Of a stretch of 64,000 bases of DNA, positions 3,369 to 9,702 are shown in pieces (position 1 is the first letter of the stretch; each line of letters begins with the position of its first letter). A program made the translations under genes and the position numbers. Origin of the DNA: Bacteroidota bacterium (GTDB lineage Bacteria; Bacteroidota; Bacteroidia; 2-12-FULL-35-15); NCBI GenBank assembly GCA_023251805.1, contig JAHEYB010000005.1, positions 1 through 64,000 of the forward strand, in the 5' to 3' direction. Below the pieces are notes generated by a model, which saw only the letters and a list, made by a program, of their open reading frames with translations, was not told the origin of the DNA and searched no databases.

Positions 3369-3399
3369 TTTGCGAATTAAAAAAATGTGTTTACATTTG
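3369..3399 (+). promoter_or_regulatory. Bacteroidota-type promoter of the ArsR operon
   Basis: A TTTG at 3369-3372 lies 19 bases upstream of TACATTTG at 3392-3399. This fits the Bacteroidota consensus TTTG-N17-23-TAnnTTTG exactly. The inferred transcription start is around 3405, about 40 bases before the ArsR start codon. Its last bases overlap the inverted-repeat operator. Confidence 0.85.
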
Positions 3400-3415
3400 T
3401 AACCGATTGGTTACA
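3398..3415. promoter_or_regulatory. Perfect inverted-repeat operator for the ArsR-family repressor
   Basis: TGTAACC-GATT-GGTTACA is a perfect 7-bp inverted repeat with a 4-bp spacer. It overlaps the -7 element and the inferred transcription start. Position and symmetry suit a homodimeric winged-helix repressor, so the likely reader is the ArsR protein encoded 30 bases downstream, by autoregulation. That the pair is repressor and operator is an inference from placement. Confidence 0.8.
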
Positions 3416-3444: not shown

Positions 3445-3840
3445 ATGAGAAGAGACGTGTTTCAAGCAATAGCAGATCCAACCAGAAGACAAATTCTGGG
3501 GATAATTGCCAACCGGCCGCTCAACTTAAATACGGTTGCTGAAAACTTTAATGTGAGTCGCCCCGCGATTTCAAAACACATTAAAATATTAACTCAATGC
3601 GGATTGATTGTGATAAAAAAACAAGGACGAGATCATTTTTGTGAAGCCAAATTGGAAAAACTAAACGAAGTCAACGATTGGGTAGCGCAATACAAAAAGT
3701 TCTGGGAGCAAAAATTGGATGCATTGGAAATTTATTTACAAGAATTGCAGAGTAATCCTCCTACGCTAAAGCTTCGGAGGATGAAGAAAACGAAAAAAGA
3801 GAAAAGTCAAAAGTTAAAAGTTAAAAAAAGAAAATCATGA
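3445..3840 (+). CDS. ArsR/SdpR-family winged-helix transcriptional repressor
   Basis: A 131-residue metalloregulator-fold repressor without visible metal-binding cysteines, so it belongs with the SdpR-like autorepressors rather than true arsenic sensors. The N-terminus FQAIADPTRRQILGII and the recognition helix in VSRPAISKHIKILTQCGLI are diagnostic. The normal domain ends near residue 107 (LEIYLQEL). The last 24 residues are lysine-rich and are encoded by two repeat-like segments, a CCTCC...GGAGG hairpin and an AAAAGTTAAAAGTT run. Its final ATGA overlaps the next gene's start, indicating translational coupling. Likely binds the operator at 3398-3415. Confidence 0.9.
   Translation: MRRDVFQAIADPTRRQILGIIANRPLNLNTVAENFNVSRPAISKHIKILTQCGLIVIKKQGRDHFCEAKLEKLNEVNDWVAQYKKFWEQKLDALEIYLQELQSNPPTLKLRRMKKTKKEKSQKLKVKKRKS
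3757..3834. repeat. Two dispersed-repeat segments inside the ArsR 3' coding end
   Basis: Bases 3757-3780 form an imperfect hairpin bounded by CCTCC and GGAGG around GCTAAAGC. The core resembles other elements of this window (for example GGAAGCTAAAGC at 38545). Bases 3808-3834 are AAAAGTTAAAAGTT-like, as in intergenic spacers at 17491 and 32321. Both are translated in frame as the extra C-terminal tail of the repressor. Confidence 0.6.
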
Positions 3841-4778
3841 AAGCAAACGACAAAAACCTAGTAATCACAAGAGTACTTAACGCGCCAAAAGAATTGGTAT
3901 GGGAAGTATGGACAGACGAGAAACACATTCCAAATTGGTGGGGACCAAAAGGACTCCATACAATTGTGAAAGAACATGATTTTAGAGTTGGAGGAAGATG
4001 GGAATATGTAATGATAGACGAAAAAGGAAATGAATATCCGGCTGTTGGTATTTTCAAAGAGATTGTTAAGTATAAAAAACTAACCTCAACCGATGATTTT
4101 ACGGAAGAATTTAGAGCCAAAACAAATGTAGATCTACCAAGGGTAATGTTGTTTTCGATGTTATTGGAAGATGAAGGTGGCAAAACCAAATTAACACTAA
4201 CCTACGAACATGCTTCAGCAGAAGACAAACAGAAACACATTAACATGGGAGTTGAGCAAGGCTGGAACTCAATGTTAGATAAAGCAGAAGAATACCTTAA
4301 AACAAAAATTGCAATGCGTGCAAATTTAAAAACTAACAACATGGCAAGAACAGTCACTTATTTAAACTTCCCGGGAACTACAGAGGAAGCATTCAACTTC
4401 TACAAATCAATTTTTAAAACAGAATTTAGTGGAAAAGGAATTCAGCGCTTAGGAGAAGTTCCAGCTCATGAAGGAATGCCAGAATTATCGGCTGAGGATA
4501 AAAAATTAATCCTTCACATTGAATTACCAATTGTTGGCGGACATATTTTGATGGCAACAGACGCACCGGAAAGCATGGGTTTTAAATTGGTGACTGGAAA
4601 CAATATGCACATCAGTATGGAACCGGAAAGTAGAGAAGAAACCAAACGTTTGTTTGATGCACTTTCTGCCGGTGGAAAAGTAGACATGGAATTACAAGAC
4701 ATGTTTTTTGGTGCTTACTTCGGTAGCTGTACTGATAAGTATGGAATTAATTGGATGGTGAATTTCTCTACCAAGTAA
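3837..4778 (+). CDS. SRPBCC (AHSA1-like) domain fused to a PhnB-type VOC domain
   Basis: A 313-residue two-domain protein. Residues 1-157 are an AHSA1-type SRPBCC (START-like) hydrophobic-ligand fold, recognised by ITRVLNAPKELVWEVWTDEKHIPNWWGP and WNSMLDKAEEYLK. Residues 170-313 are a PhnB/3-demethylubiquinone-like VOC domain, recognised by TVTYLNFPGTTEEAFNFYKSIF, PIVGGHILMATD and GAYFGSCTDKYGINWMVN. The linker (AMRANLKTNNMARTV) reads like a translated intergenic spacer with an internal ATG at 4341. This suggests recent fusion of two adjacent genes by loss of a stop codon. Start overlaps the ArsR stop by 4 bases. Ligand unknown. Confidence 0.88.
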   Translation: MKANDKNLVITRVLNAPKELVWEVWTDEKHIPNWWGPKGLHTIVKEHDFRVGGRWEYVMIDEKGNEYPAVGIFKEIVKYKKLTSTDDFTEEFRAKTNVDLPRVMLFSMLLEDEGGKTKLTLTYEHASAEDKQKHINMGVEQGWNSMLDKAEEYLKTKIAMRANLKTNNMARTVTYLNFPGTTEEAFNFYKSIFKTEFSGKGIQRLGEVPAHEGMPELSAEDKKLILHIELPIVGGHILMATDAPESMGFKLVTGNNMHISMEPESREETKRLFDALSAGGKVDMELQDMFFGAYFGSCTDKYGINWMVNFSTK

Positions 4779-4816
4779 ATTATAAATATTGAATTATAAA
4801 TTATAAATTAAAACTT

Positions 4817-5194
4817 ATGAAGAAAATAAACATTCTCTATTGGATCCTAACGGGACTATTCGCAGCGTTTATGATTTTTACTGCTATCCCTGATATTACA
4901 GTTAATCCGGAAGCAGTTAAATTTATGACCGACCTTGGTTACCCTGTTTATCTACTAATGTTTTTAGGTGTTGCAAAAATATTGGGCTCCATCGCGATTT
5001 TAATTCCTGGTTTTCCTAGAATTAAGGAATGGGCGTATGCAGGCTTGATGTTCGACTTAATTGGTGCTATGTATTCTGTCGCTGCATTGAATGGTGTAGG
5101 ACCAGCAGCGCCTTTTGTTATTTTTTTAGCATTGGGCTTTGCTTCTTATTTTATGTATCACAAAAAATTAAAAGAAACAGCAAGTGCTGCATAA
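4817..5194 (+). CDS. DoxX-like integral membrane protein
   Basis: A 125-residue protein with four predicted membrane helices (residues about 5-25, 42-62, 70-90 and 96-115). The pattern is that of the DoxX_2 group: ILYWILTGLFAAFMIFTAIPDI, then FLGVAKILGSIAILIPGFPRIKEWAYAGLMFDLIGA, then a short basic C-terminus. Such proteins often sit beside ArsR and SRPBCC genes in Bacteroidota; the biochemical role is unknown. It starts 38 bases after the SRPBCC-VOC gene, in an AT-rich spacer of TTATAAATTATAAAT type, and is probably in the same operon. Confidence 0.85.
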   Translation: MKKINILYWILTGLFAAFMIFTAIPDITVNPEAVKFMTDLGYPVYLLMFLGVAKILGSIAILIPGFPRIKEWAYAGLMFDLIGAMYSVAALNGVGPAAPFVIFLALGFASYFMYHKKLKETASAA

Positions 5195-5195
5195 A

Positions 5196-5405
5196 ATGGT
5201 AGAAGTTTTTAAAACAAACATTGAAGAACACTTACAAGCTGAAAATGTAATCAGCTTGTTGGCTGTTTCTTTTCCCGAATGTAAAATAAATTTCGACCTA
5301 GAAGATTGCGATAAAATTTTAAGATTAGAAGGGACAGCTTTCTCTTCTGAAGAAATCATTGGTTTATTAAAAGCAAAAGGCTTTAACTGTGAGCCATTAA
5401 ATTAA
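5196..5405 (+). CDS. Small HMA-like (ferredoxin-fold) protein
   Basis: A 69-residue protein. The ATG at 5196, just after the DoxX stop, is preferred over an upstream GTG at 5184 that would overlap the DoxX gene. The pattern VEVFKTNIEEHLQAENVISLLAVSFPECKINFDLEDCDKILRLEG...SSEEIIGLLKAKGFNCEPL matches the beta-alpha-beta-beta-alpha-beta layout of heavy-metal-associated domains. The metal-binding CxxC loop is missing, so it is HMA-like in fold only. It ends 1 base before the next gene and is clearly part of the ArsR operon. Confidence 0.75.
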   Translation: MVEVFKTNIEEHLQAENVISLLAVSFPECKINFDLEDCDKILRLEGTAFSSEEIIGLLKAKGFNCEPLN

Positions 5406-5406
5406 A

Positions 5407-5844
5407 ATGGAAAATACACCTTTTACCATCGAACGCACTTACAATGCTCCCATACAAAAAGTATGGTCGGCAATAAGTGACAACAACGAAATGCAAAAAT
5501 GGTATTTCAAATTGGAAAATTTCAAACCTATTGTTGGTTTCGAATTCCGTTTTACTGGCGGTCCGACCGAAGACAGACAATACTTACACATTTGTATGGT
5601 CACAGAAGTGATTGAAGGAAAAAAATTAACATATAGTTGGAGATATGATGGCTACGAAGGCATTTCCTATGTTACGTTTGAATTGTTTGCAAAAGGAAAT
5701 CAAACGCACCTAAAATTAACACATGCTGGTTTAGAAACATTCCCTATAAACAATAAAGATTTTGCTCCAGAAAATTTTTCTGCAGGCTGGACGCATATTA
5801 TCGGGACTGGGCTACTGGAGTTTTTGACAAACTCTTCAAAATAA
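5407..5844 (+). CDS. SRPBCC (AHSA1-like) domain protein
   Basis: A 145-residue single-domain START-like protein, the second SRPBCC domain of this operon. Diagnostic stretches are FTIERTYNAPIQKVWSAISDNNEMQKWYF near the N-terminus and FSAGWTHIIGTGLLEFL at the C-terminus. It is a paralogue of the N-terminal half of the SRPBCC-VOC protein but diverged. It starts 1 base after the HMA-like gene and is the last gene of the operon. These proteins bind hydrophobic small molecules; the ligand here is unknown. Confidence 0.88.
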   Translation: MENTPFTIERTYNAPIQKVWSAISDNNEMQKWYFKLENFKPIVGFEFRFTGGPTEDRQYLHICMVTEVIEGKKLTYSWRYDGYEGISYVTFELFAKGNQTHLKLTHAGLETFPINNKDFAPENFSAGWTHIIGTGLLEFLTNSSK

Positions 5845-5976
5845 TGCAAAAGACAGCCTTATCTGGCAAAGATGGGGTTGTTTTTATACATTTTGCTTTT
5901 TAAAATACTTTTCAATACCTTAGTCCTAAGCATTTCACAATGCCAGGAGTACTCCCAGGGCGATTAATACAGTTTT

Positions 5977-7962: not shown

Positions 7963-9132
7963 TTAATCCAAAACAATTTCTTCTTTACTGAAATCGTAAT
8001 TAGAATAATCAGTAATCACATTATAAAGTGTATCGCGCTCAATTGGCGCACGGCCTACTTGCTTTATCATCTCTACCAATTGCTGTGTTGTTAAAGCAGG
8101 CGATTGTTCTTCCGAACCCGCCATTGTATAAATTTTTGTAGAATCGTCAATCGTTCCATCAATATCATCCACACCAAATGCCAAAGAAAGTTGTGCAGTG
8201 GTTCTGCCAATCATTGGCCAATACGCTTTCACATGTCCGAAATTATCCATGTAAATGCGAGACACAGCATAGTTACGCAAATCCTCTATCACCGTTGATT
8301 CGGCAATATGACTCATTTGGTTTCCACCGTTTCTAAATTTTAAAGGAATAAACGTATTAAAACCTTTTGTTTTGTCTTGCAAATCGCGCAAACGATTCAT
8401 GTGATCAATTCGGTGTTCAAATTTTTCTACGTGTCCGTATAACATTGTTGCATTCGAAGGCATTCCTAATTTATGCGCTGTCTCGTGAATCTCTAACCAT
8501 TCAGCAGAAGTACATTTGTCTTCGCAAATTTCTTTACGAACGGTTTCATCAAATATTTCTGCTCCGCCACCCGGTAATGAATTTTGTCCGTGCTCTTTTA
8601 AAATACGCAAACCTTCTTCATAACTTACTTTTGCTTTTCTGCACATGTATTCCAATTCCACCGCTGTGAATGCTTTCACATGCAAATCAGGACGAATTTC
8701 TTTTATTTTTTTGATCAGGTTTGCAAAATACATCAAGCCCATTTTCGGATGCACTCCACCAACAATGTGAACTTCGGTAATTGGTTTCCCATCGTATTTG
8801 CGTACTAAATCTAAAATTTGCTCTTCGGATAATTCCCAAGCGCCATCTTTTTGTTTTAACAAACGTGAGTAAGAACAAAACTTACAATCAAACACACAAA
8901 TATTAGTCGGCTCGATATGGAAATTGCGATTGAAATAAACGTTGTTTCCGTTTTTCTTTTCGCGGATATAATTCGCCAAAGTACCTAAAAAACCGAGCTC
9001 GCCTTTTTCAAAAAGCAAAACACCTTCATCGAAAGTAATTCGCTCGCTGGCAATTACCTTTTCAGTAATTTTTTTAAGGTCGTTTGATAATTTGGAATCT
9101 ATTAAAAGGGAAGAAATATCTCGGGTTTGCAT
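7963..9132 (-). CDS. mqnE: Aminodeoxyfutalosine synthase MqnE (radical SAM)
   Basis: Radical SAM enzyme of the futalosine route to menaquinone. It joins 3-[(1-carboxyvinyl)oxy]benzoate and S-adenosylmethionine to give aminodeoxyfutalosine. The CxxxCxxC cluster motif appears as NICVFDCKFCSY. The MqnE-specific stretch GGGAEIFDETVRKEICEDK...MPSNATMLYGHVE and the GRAPIERDTLYN tail separate it from MqnC and CofH. The ATG at 9132 is preferred over a TTG at 9153, because the latter lies inside the inferred -7 element at 9151-9158. The other pathway genes are not in this window. 389 residues, normal length. Confidence 0.92.
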   Translation of the reverse strand: MQTRDISSLLIDSKLSNDLKKITEKVIASERITFDEGVLLFEKGELGFLGTLANYIREKKNGNNVYFNRNFHIEPTNICVFDCKFCSYSRLLKQKDGAWELSEEQILDLVRKYDGKPITEVHIVGGVHPKMGLMYFANLIKKIKEIRPDLHVKAFTAVELEYMCRKAKVSYEEGLRILKEHGQNSLPGGGAEIFDETVRKEICEDKCTSAEWLEIHETAHKLGMPSNATMLYGHVEKFEHRIDHMNRLRDLQDKTKGFNTFIPLKFRNGGNQMSHIAESTVIEDLRNYAVSRIYMDNFGHVKAYWPMIGRTTAQLSLAFGVDDIDGTIDDSTKIYTMAGSEEQSPALTTQQLVEMIKQVGRAPIERDTLYNVITDYSNYDFSKEEIVLD

Positions 9133-9150
9133 GGTTGCTAATTTAAAGCA

Positions 9151-9182
9151 CAAATTTACGATTTGTAGGATTTAATAGCAAA
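9151..9182 (-). promoter_or_regulatory. Bacteroidota-type promoter of mqnE
   Basis: On the minus strand TTTG (complement of 9179-9182) lies 20 bases upstream of TAAATTTG (complement of 9151-9158). The element stands 18 bases before the chosen ATG and therefore also supports that start. Confidence 0.75.
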
Positions 9183-9227
9183 CGTATAAGGCTTTTGTTT
9201 CAAAATACAACAAATCGAACAATTCCG

Positions 9228-9235
9228 TATATTTG
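9228..9235 (+). promoter_or_regulatory. TATATTTG -7 element abutting the antitoxin start
   Basis: A perfect TAnnTTTG -7 box ends 4 bases before the ATG at 9240. No TTTG is found at the right distance upstream. If used, transcription would begin at or next to the start codon and the mRNA would be leaderless. Confidence 0.5.
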
Positions 9236-9239
9236 TGGC

Positions 9240-9434
9240 ATGAAAGCAATGGTAATCACCCCAAAAAGTCAAACAGAGTTTAAGTTCATTAACGACTTAT
9301 TAAAAAAGTTAGGCGTTTCCTCTGCAACAATGACCGAAGAAGAAATTGAAGATCTTGGTTTATCAAAACTATTAAAATCAGTTGATAAAGGAAAAAAGGT
9401 AAACAAAGAAACAATTCTTCAAAAGCTAAAGTAG
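9240..9434 (+). CDS. Antitoxin of a RelE/ParE-type toxin-antitoxin pair
   Basis: A 64-residue protein. The ATG at 9240 is chosen; the open frame extends upstream to 9195, but that part overlaps the promoter region. The C-terminal half (MTEEEIEDLGLSKLLKSVDKGKKVNKETILQKLK) has the acidic helix followed by a basic end seen in small Bacteroidota antitoxins whose C-terminus wraps the toxin. The N-terminus (MKAMVITPKSQTEFKFINDLLKKLG) has no recognisable ribbon-helix-helix. The gene ends 1 base before the toxin start, the classic antitoxin-first order. Confidence 0.75.
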   Translation: MKAMVITPKSQTEFKFINDLLKKLGVSSATMTEEEIEDLGLSKLLKSVDKGKKVNKETILQKLK

Positions 9435-9435
9435 T

Positions 9436-9702
9436 ATGCAAATTGAGTTTTTAGGAAAATTCTCAAAAGATCTTGATCGCATTAACCAAAAATCTGTCAA
9501 GACAGCTCTTTTAAAGCTTATTTATGAGATAGAACATTCAGAAAACTTAAACAATATCCAAAATCTTAAAAAACTAGTTGGTCATAAATCTGCCTATAGA
9601 GTAAGAATAGGTGATTATCGTGTTGGCTTCTTTTACGAAAATCGAAAAGTTTTATTTGCAAGAATAATTCATCGAAAAGATATTTACAAAGTCTTTCCAT
9701 AG
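9436..9702 (+). CDS. RelE/ParE-family toxin
   Basis: An 88-residue basic protein of the RelE/ParE superfamily. Diagnostic features are the N-terminal strand-helix (IEFLGKFSKDLDRI), then LKKLVGHKSAYRVRIGDYRVGFFYENRKVLFARIIHRKDIYKVFP. The YRVRIGDYRVGF hairpin and the arginine/histidine-rich last strand are the family signature. RelE members cleave mRNA on the ribosome and ParE members block gyrase; the sequence does not decide between them. It is paired with the antitoxin directly upstream and ends 9 bases before a response regulator gene. Confidence 0.88.
   Translation: MQIEFLGKFSKDLDRINQKSVKTALLKLIYEIEHSENLNNIQNLKKLVGHKSAYRVRIGDYRVGFFYENRKVLFARIIHRKDIYKVFP

Follow-up and report, generated by a model that had tools for sequence, protein, structure and literature searches.

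A putative self-repressing ArsR-SRPBCC operon in Bacteroidota and a candidate four-residue code for its operator

ArsR-family regulators are very common, and for most of them we know of no operator. Among described systems, the closest to the locus presented here is Rv2034 of Mycobacterium tuberculosis, an ArsR protein reported from mobility shift (EMSA), footprint, and reporter assays to repress itself via CCGTAAGT-CTAA-ACTTACGG (PMC3338718); according to a section heading of that paper, its DNA binding is not inhibited by zinc and four other metal ions. For Brucella ArsR6, footprints are mentioned with no motif given in the text. Searches of the open-licence PMC literature found no residue-base code for ArsR proteins; literature searches likewise found no paper on solved CzrA contacts, and the occurrence of GTAACC together with ArsR that was found lies only in a primer. 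In the primary-sigma promoter of Bacteroidota, TTTG forms the -33 element. TAnnTTTG is the -7 consensus of the phylum, situated at -12 to -5 (PMC9723704).

Putative promoter and operator, and genes, of the ArsR locus

The window, by which we mean the whole 64,000-nucleotide stretch of DNA analyzed, contains an ArsR-type gene with the following features in front of, within, and behind it.

3369..3372, plus strand: putative -33 promoter element TTTG (from the sequence, and from the TTG or TTTG directly before the upstream operator of relatives in 128 of 138 two-site loci)
3373..3390, plus strand: place of the upstream operator of most relatives, with no recognizable copy here (comparison with the operator consensus)
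3392..3399, plus strand: putative -7 promoter element TACATTTG, of the form TAnnTTTG (from the sequence and the consensus in PMC9723704)
3398..3415, no strand assigned: predicted operator TGTAACC-GATT-GGTTACA (conserved in relatives; its letters covary with the ArsR recognition helix)
3404, plus strand: probable transcription start, give or take a few bases (from the placement of TAnnTTTG at -12 to -5 in PMC9723704)
3445..3840, plus strand: ArsR-family protein of 131 aa, a putative repressor (PF01022, 40.4 bits against a cut-off of 22; NF033788, 67.8 against 55)
3559..3597, plus strand: recognition helix, codons 39 to 51 (RPAISKHIKILTQ), with 39, 40, 41, and 44 as proposed base readers (AlphaFold helix; covariation)
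3837..4778, plus strand: protein that fuses AHSA1 (SRPBCC) and VOC, its start within the arsR stop (PF08327, 96.9 bits; PF06983, 33.4 bits)
4817..5194, plus strand: DoxX_2 membrane protein (PF13564, 68.6 bits)
5196..5405, plus strand: 69-aa protein of no known family (neither Pfam nor NCBIfam match)
5407..5844, plus strand: second AHSA1 (SRPBCC) protein (PF08327, 62.1 bits)
5849..5885, plus strand: possible terminator behind the operon (consensus scan only)

Both boxes of the Bacteroidota primary-sigma promoter, TTTG at -33 and TAnnTTTG at -7, are found at 3369 to 3399, separated by a spacer of 19 bases. An earlier note on this DNA had read TTTG, N19, TACATTTG, and an overlapping inverted repeat, and on re-reading all of its letters and coordinates proved correct. 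It had also called the operator perfect; the arms (3398 to 3404 and 3409 to 3415) are fully complementary, and the GATT center is asymmetric. The operator ends 29 nt before the ArsR gene start at 3445. Since TAnnTTTG occupies -12 to -5, transcription would be expected to start near 3404, within the operator. A sigma-70 promoter scan stayed at background level; its model is unsuited to this phylum.

The next gene, which the earlier note had taken to be of ArsR type, is the open reading frame at 3445 to 3840, and its product exceeds the cut-offs of both PF01022 and NF033788. Its winged-helix domain, which scores over curated cut-offs, and Foldseek matches to ArsR structures place the protein in the ArsR/SmtB superfamily, and its score against the SdpR autorepressor subfamily model (NF033789, 61.7 bits) lies below the cut-off of 100. 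An AlphaFold model built on 24 sequences, as a monomer without DNA (mean pLDDT 84.1), has a helix at residues 39 to 51, and residues 39, 40, 41, and 44 are predicted to lie at its start. The closest solved folds are 3f6o, 3f6v, and 7p6f. Two cysteines, Cys52 just past the recognition helix (3598 to 3600) and Cys66 (3640 to 3642), are conserved, the first in 99 and the second in 86 of 100 relatives, and possibly form a thiol or metal site.

The genes for ArsR, the AHSA1-VOC fusion, DoxX_2, the 69-aa protein, and the second AHSA1 protein occupy 3445 to 5844 in a single orientation. Of the 79 named relatives with room, 52 have an AHSA1 match that starts at most 80 bp from the arsR stop. In all 11 cases where AHSA1 and VOC are neighbors on the same strand, that of the window among them, the two form a single fused protein; in five further loci, both are present and lie far apart. 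The terminator scan was hardly above background (4 in the region versus 2.3 in shuffles). Elsewhere in the window, at 9195 to 9702, a 79-aa open reading frame whose product has no Pfam match is directly followed by a ParE-like toxin gene (PF05016, 29.2 bits), possibly a toxin-antitoxin pair, and 7963 to 9153 on the minus strand encodes a radical SAM protein with a CofH/MqnC C-terminal domain, which perhaps belongs to the futalosine menaquinone pathway.

Operator conservation and two-site anatomy in relatives

Homologs were drawn from two sources, 59 related genomes (25 of which gave a match) and the 80 best named loci out of a larger set. Among these 110 loci, 108 gave a tblastn hit and 100 passed a filter of at least 38% identity and a protein of more than 80 aa, the 8 removed by it being distant, SdpR-like, or low-identity homologs. 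An operator-like site lies within 110 nt upstream in 94 of the 100 relatives (5.3% in shuffled upstreams), and 80 have two such sites (0.12% in shuffles), in a scan whose consensus was derived from those same loci. The earlier note had proposed that orthologous operons lacking the repeat would count against its reading; at 50% identity or more, the repeat is present upstream in 83 of 85 relatives, and 71 of the 85 have two. The wider phylum (395 genomes) supplied another 109 loci, 29 of them automatic and 80 fetched, in listed order; scanned with bases 3, 5, and 6 left unfixed, these yielded 100 loci with a site and 74 with two (5.2% and 0.06% in shuffles).

Across all 209 loci, the unfixed-base scan within 80 nt found a pair of sites in 138, a single site in 52, and no site in 19. 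What had been presented as a rare case is thus a common promoter-operator arrangement, shared by 190 of 209 homologous loci, nearly all of them in Bacteroidota. In 107 of the 138 two-site loci, one site starts 26 bp from the start of the other, a distance of about 2.5 helical turns. In 128 of the 138, TTG directly precedes the upstream site or TTTG is shared with it (4.7% at random positions); in 104, the last letter of a TAnnTTTG falls on base 2 of the downstream site or shortly ahead of it (1.5% at random positions). These coincidences indicate that two-site loci mostly have an operator fitted to each promoter box, the usual layout being one operator that abuts the -33 TTTG and another that overlaps the -7 box. 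This usual arrangement had been overlooked in the earlier note, and the window locus has one operator only; the best other consensus match nearby agrees in 8 of 14 letters. Only the downstream site is likewise present in one relative (L002), and two loci of the same genus (L003 and L004) have both; the missing upstream copy may most simply have been lost.

Counts within the window give no such signal. Perfect 7-N4-7 repeats number 6, against a mean of 9.35 in Markov sequences, and TTTG-N17-21-TAnnTTTG matches on both strands number 7, against a mean of 6.2; we therefore reject any significance of the promoter or operator taken singly within the window as being at chance level. The element is real through its place and conservation, not through window statistics. 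In the 2.98-Mb genome assembly (about 80% complete), the exact repeat occurs once, and sites with at most two mismatches number 9, versus 23 for a reversed control pattern; the assembly therefore gives no sign of an enriched regulon. The sole other NF033788 match in this genome (L220, contig C41, 16263 to 16484) has no such operator upstream.

Covariation between the recognition helix and the operator

Operator letters vary with the recognition helix of the adjacent ArsR protein in a nearly one-to-one pairing, residue 39 with base 2, 40 with base 3, 41 with base 5, and 44 with base 6; in the window ArsR, R39 stands with G, P40 with T, A41 with A, and K44 with C. Rules for residues 40, 41, and 44 were drawn from the first 100 loci and frozen before testing on the 109 further loci, where, taking the majority base per locus, they held in 83 of 98 cases for residue 40, 96 of 97 for residue 41, and 82 of 94 for residue 44. 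The misses were mostly systematic: 14 of the 15 for residue 40 come from Q40 loci, which divide into those with C and those with A, and 8 of the 12 for residue 44 come from T41 loci, where base 6 is T. Q40 half-sites (n = 152) have C in 123, A in 29, and T in none, and P40 half-sites have T in 179 of 186. The rules are accordingly not strictly single-letter, since Q40 occurs with either C or A and K44 with either C or T, and S41 is mixed. In five Q40 loci (L171, L189, L204, L205, and L209), the outer half-sites of the tandem pair read GAAACC, with A at base 3, and the inner ones GCAACC, with C, so that the pair forms a larger dyad.

Eighteen plasmid records of other phyla, about 8 of them with a convincing site by eye, suggested the 39-2 pairing and do not count as a test of it. 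The enlarged rules, with residue 39 added, Q40 read as C or A, and K or R44 as C or T, were frozen in turn and applied to 89 loci from a second phylum, that of the genome (G450) carrying L093, a locus whose record is of Acidobacteria. These loci comprised 29 automatic and 60 fetched from the top of a longer list, with two near contig ends excluded. The scan detected a site in 44 of these loci (4.5% in shuffles) and none in the other 45. Agreement by half-site was 80 of 86 for pair 39-2 (mean of 500 permutations 29, highest 53), 73 of 80 for 40-3 (mean 37, highest 56), 74 of 80 for 41-5 (mean 64, highest 78, not exceeded), and 90 of 96 for 44-6 (mean 82, highest 90, not exceeded). Residues 41 and 44 barely vary in this phylum, and these permutation maxima mean that only residues 39 and 40 were tested there with power.

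We then pooled 336 loci (L220 to L222 left out), including those on which the rules had been found; the helix is readable in 334, and a stricter palindrome scan found a site in 198. Over these 198 loci, R39 goes with G in 146 of 155, L39 with T in 16 of 17, Q39 with A in 13 of 16, P40 with T in 118 of 126, T41 with G in 7 of 7, Q44 with G in 20 of 22, and L44 with G in 10 of 10. A rule for G41, frozen with the enlarged set, was not borne out (A in 2, G in 1). Sequence, conservation, spacing, and covariation are in this way established by computation. We consider it probable that ArsR-SRPBCC repressors follow a nearly modular code of one residue to one base across phyla, in which R39 would read G, Q39 A, and L or I39 T at base 2; P40 T and Q or N40 mostly C at base 3; A41 A and T41 G at base 5; and K or R44 C or T and Q or L44 G at base 6. 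An operator would then be predictable from four residues and specificity switchable by single substitutions, with Bacteroidota fitting two such operators onto their -33 and -7 boxes.

Alternative explanations and relation to known systems

We favor, with a probability of about 0.9, a self-repressing ArsR of an ArsR-SRPBCC operon whose -33/-7 promoter is overlapped by its operator, such that transcription of the whole operon would be blocked. RNA polymerase would use the Bacteroidota-type promoter at 3369 to 3399, and an ArsR dimer would bind the 7-4-7 inverted repeat at 3398 to 3415, over the end of the -7 box and the presumed start point. By covering both, the dimer is proposed to block transcription of arsR, AHSA1-VOC, DoxX, the 69-aa gene, and AHSA1 as a common transcript. 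In most relatives, a second dimer may occupy the upstream copy, which lies 26 bp away beside the -33 box, and specificity would come mainly from residues 39, 40, 41, and 44 of the recognition helix reading operator bases 2, 3, 5, and 6. Binding and repression are suggested by position, covariation, and the analogy with Rv2034. The autoregulated promoter-operator-regulator unit put forward in the earlier note is supported. Counting against this reading are the loci in which no site was found (19 of 209 relatives, 45 of 89 in the second phylum, and 3 of 9 resembling Rv2034) and the lack, in the window, of the second operator that the family usually has.

A metal-responsive switch would use the same operator, with release by a metal ion, and could point to the general NCBIfam model "metalloregulator ArsR/SmtB," which the protein passes, and to Cys52 and Cys66 (99 and 86 of 100 relatives). 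However, the protein scores far under the cut-off of the CmtR metal-sensor model (NF047906, 39.3 bits versus 150), Pfam finds no metal or efflux gene in the operon, and Rv2034, by the section heading cited above, binds DNA unhindered by the metal ions added (PMC3338718), and we regard such a switch as improbable. That the repeat serves another regulator or is a chance palindrome fits the ordinary frequency of perfect 7-N4-7 repeats in the window (6 versus 9.35 expected), yet it is very hard to square with a repeat conserved, position included, in 83 of 85 relatives and with operator letters that track the adjacent ArsR helix on new loci. Least credible of all is a leader RNA hairpin, acting as attenuator or stability element in place of a protein site: the repeat would indeed lie at or near the 5' end of the transcript if this starts near 3404, but the second copy that most relatives have lies ahead of the -7 box, where no transcript from this promoter would reach, and the letters of the repeat covary with a protein helix.

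For the covariation itself, the alternative to direct contact is that it mainly reflects the common descent of regulator and operator. A tree built without the helix columns, poorly supported, has starred independent pairs numbering 3 for residue 40, 1 for residue 44, and 1 for residue 41, nearly always in the expected direction and far from significant; these supported pairs are too few, and the limited variation of residues 41 and 44 in the second phylum also leaves room for ancestry. Against it, in the pool the matching residue carries the highest mutual information for each of bases 2, 3, 5, and 6 (0.69, 0.74, 0.29, and 0.71 bits), and it does so again in 39 proteins of less than 55% identity outside the helix (1.00, 0.57, 0.37, and 0.92 bits). 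Off-pair information is lower yet nonzero, and at this thinning residue 42 comes near for base 5 (0.33). The same letters also recur with the same residues in several phyla. We therefore see shared ancestry as unlikely to be the main cause, though it is the most serious of the alternatives, and prefer direct reading of bases by the four residues. The locus itself is an ordinary, autoregulated ArsR-SRPBCC operon on this account, and the wider result is a testable four-residue code. If true, the code would allow operators, and so regulons, to be predicted from protein sequence on the strength of self-regulated operons, and it would offer distinct repressor-operator pairs for Bacteroidota genetics.

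Recognition codes are reported for other protein families, for LacI reportedly by Camas in 2010. One for MerR regulators (PMC5045206) does not mention ArsR in its main text. Among the best sequence and structure matches to the window ArsR, 3f6o, 2oqg (Rhodococcus), and SrnR (7p6f) share its fold at 29 to 37% identity over the aligned part, and the 3f6o helix reads ALPSFMKH where the window ArsR has SRPAISKH. The recognition helix of Rv2034 we take to be SRPAVSQH (R39 P40 A41 Q44). The protein sequence assumed for it agrees with A32, E35, and C61, the residues named in PMC3338718, and the rules, applied to the presumed helix, give G2 T3 A5 G6, which are the reported footprint letters. With the assumed protein as query, 9 of 24 matching records were examined at a threshold loosened to 5/7 pairs: three Rhodococcus loci and one Tsukamurella locus with SRPAVSQH all have GTAAG..CTTAC, two Sinorhizobium loci with Q39 have ATAAG..CTTAT, and no site was found in the other three of the nine.

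Rv2034 differs from the window ArsR in its promoter type and in having other reported targets, such as dosR, whereas the window genome has no enriched second site. It differs also at base 6, with G where the window has C, matching the rule for Q44 if the helix is as presumed. In other respects the two agree: the window locus has the 7-4-7 repeat upstream of its own regulator gene and the adjacent AHSA1 gene (96.9 bits) of the Rv2034 type of ArsR-SRPBCC system, and in both cases the inverted repeat ahead of a demonstrated or putative ArsR autorepressor has a 4-bp spacer and keeps the same frame, GTAAGT-CTAA-ACTTAC in Rv2034 (PMC3338718) and GTAACC-GATT-GGTTAC in the window.
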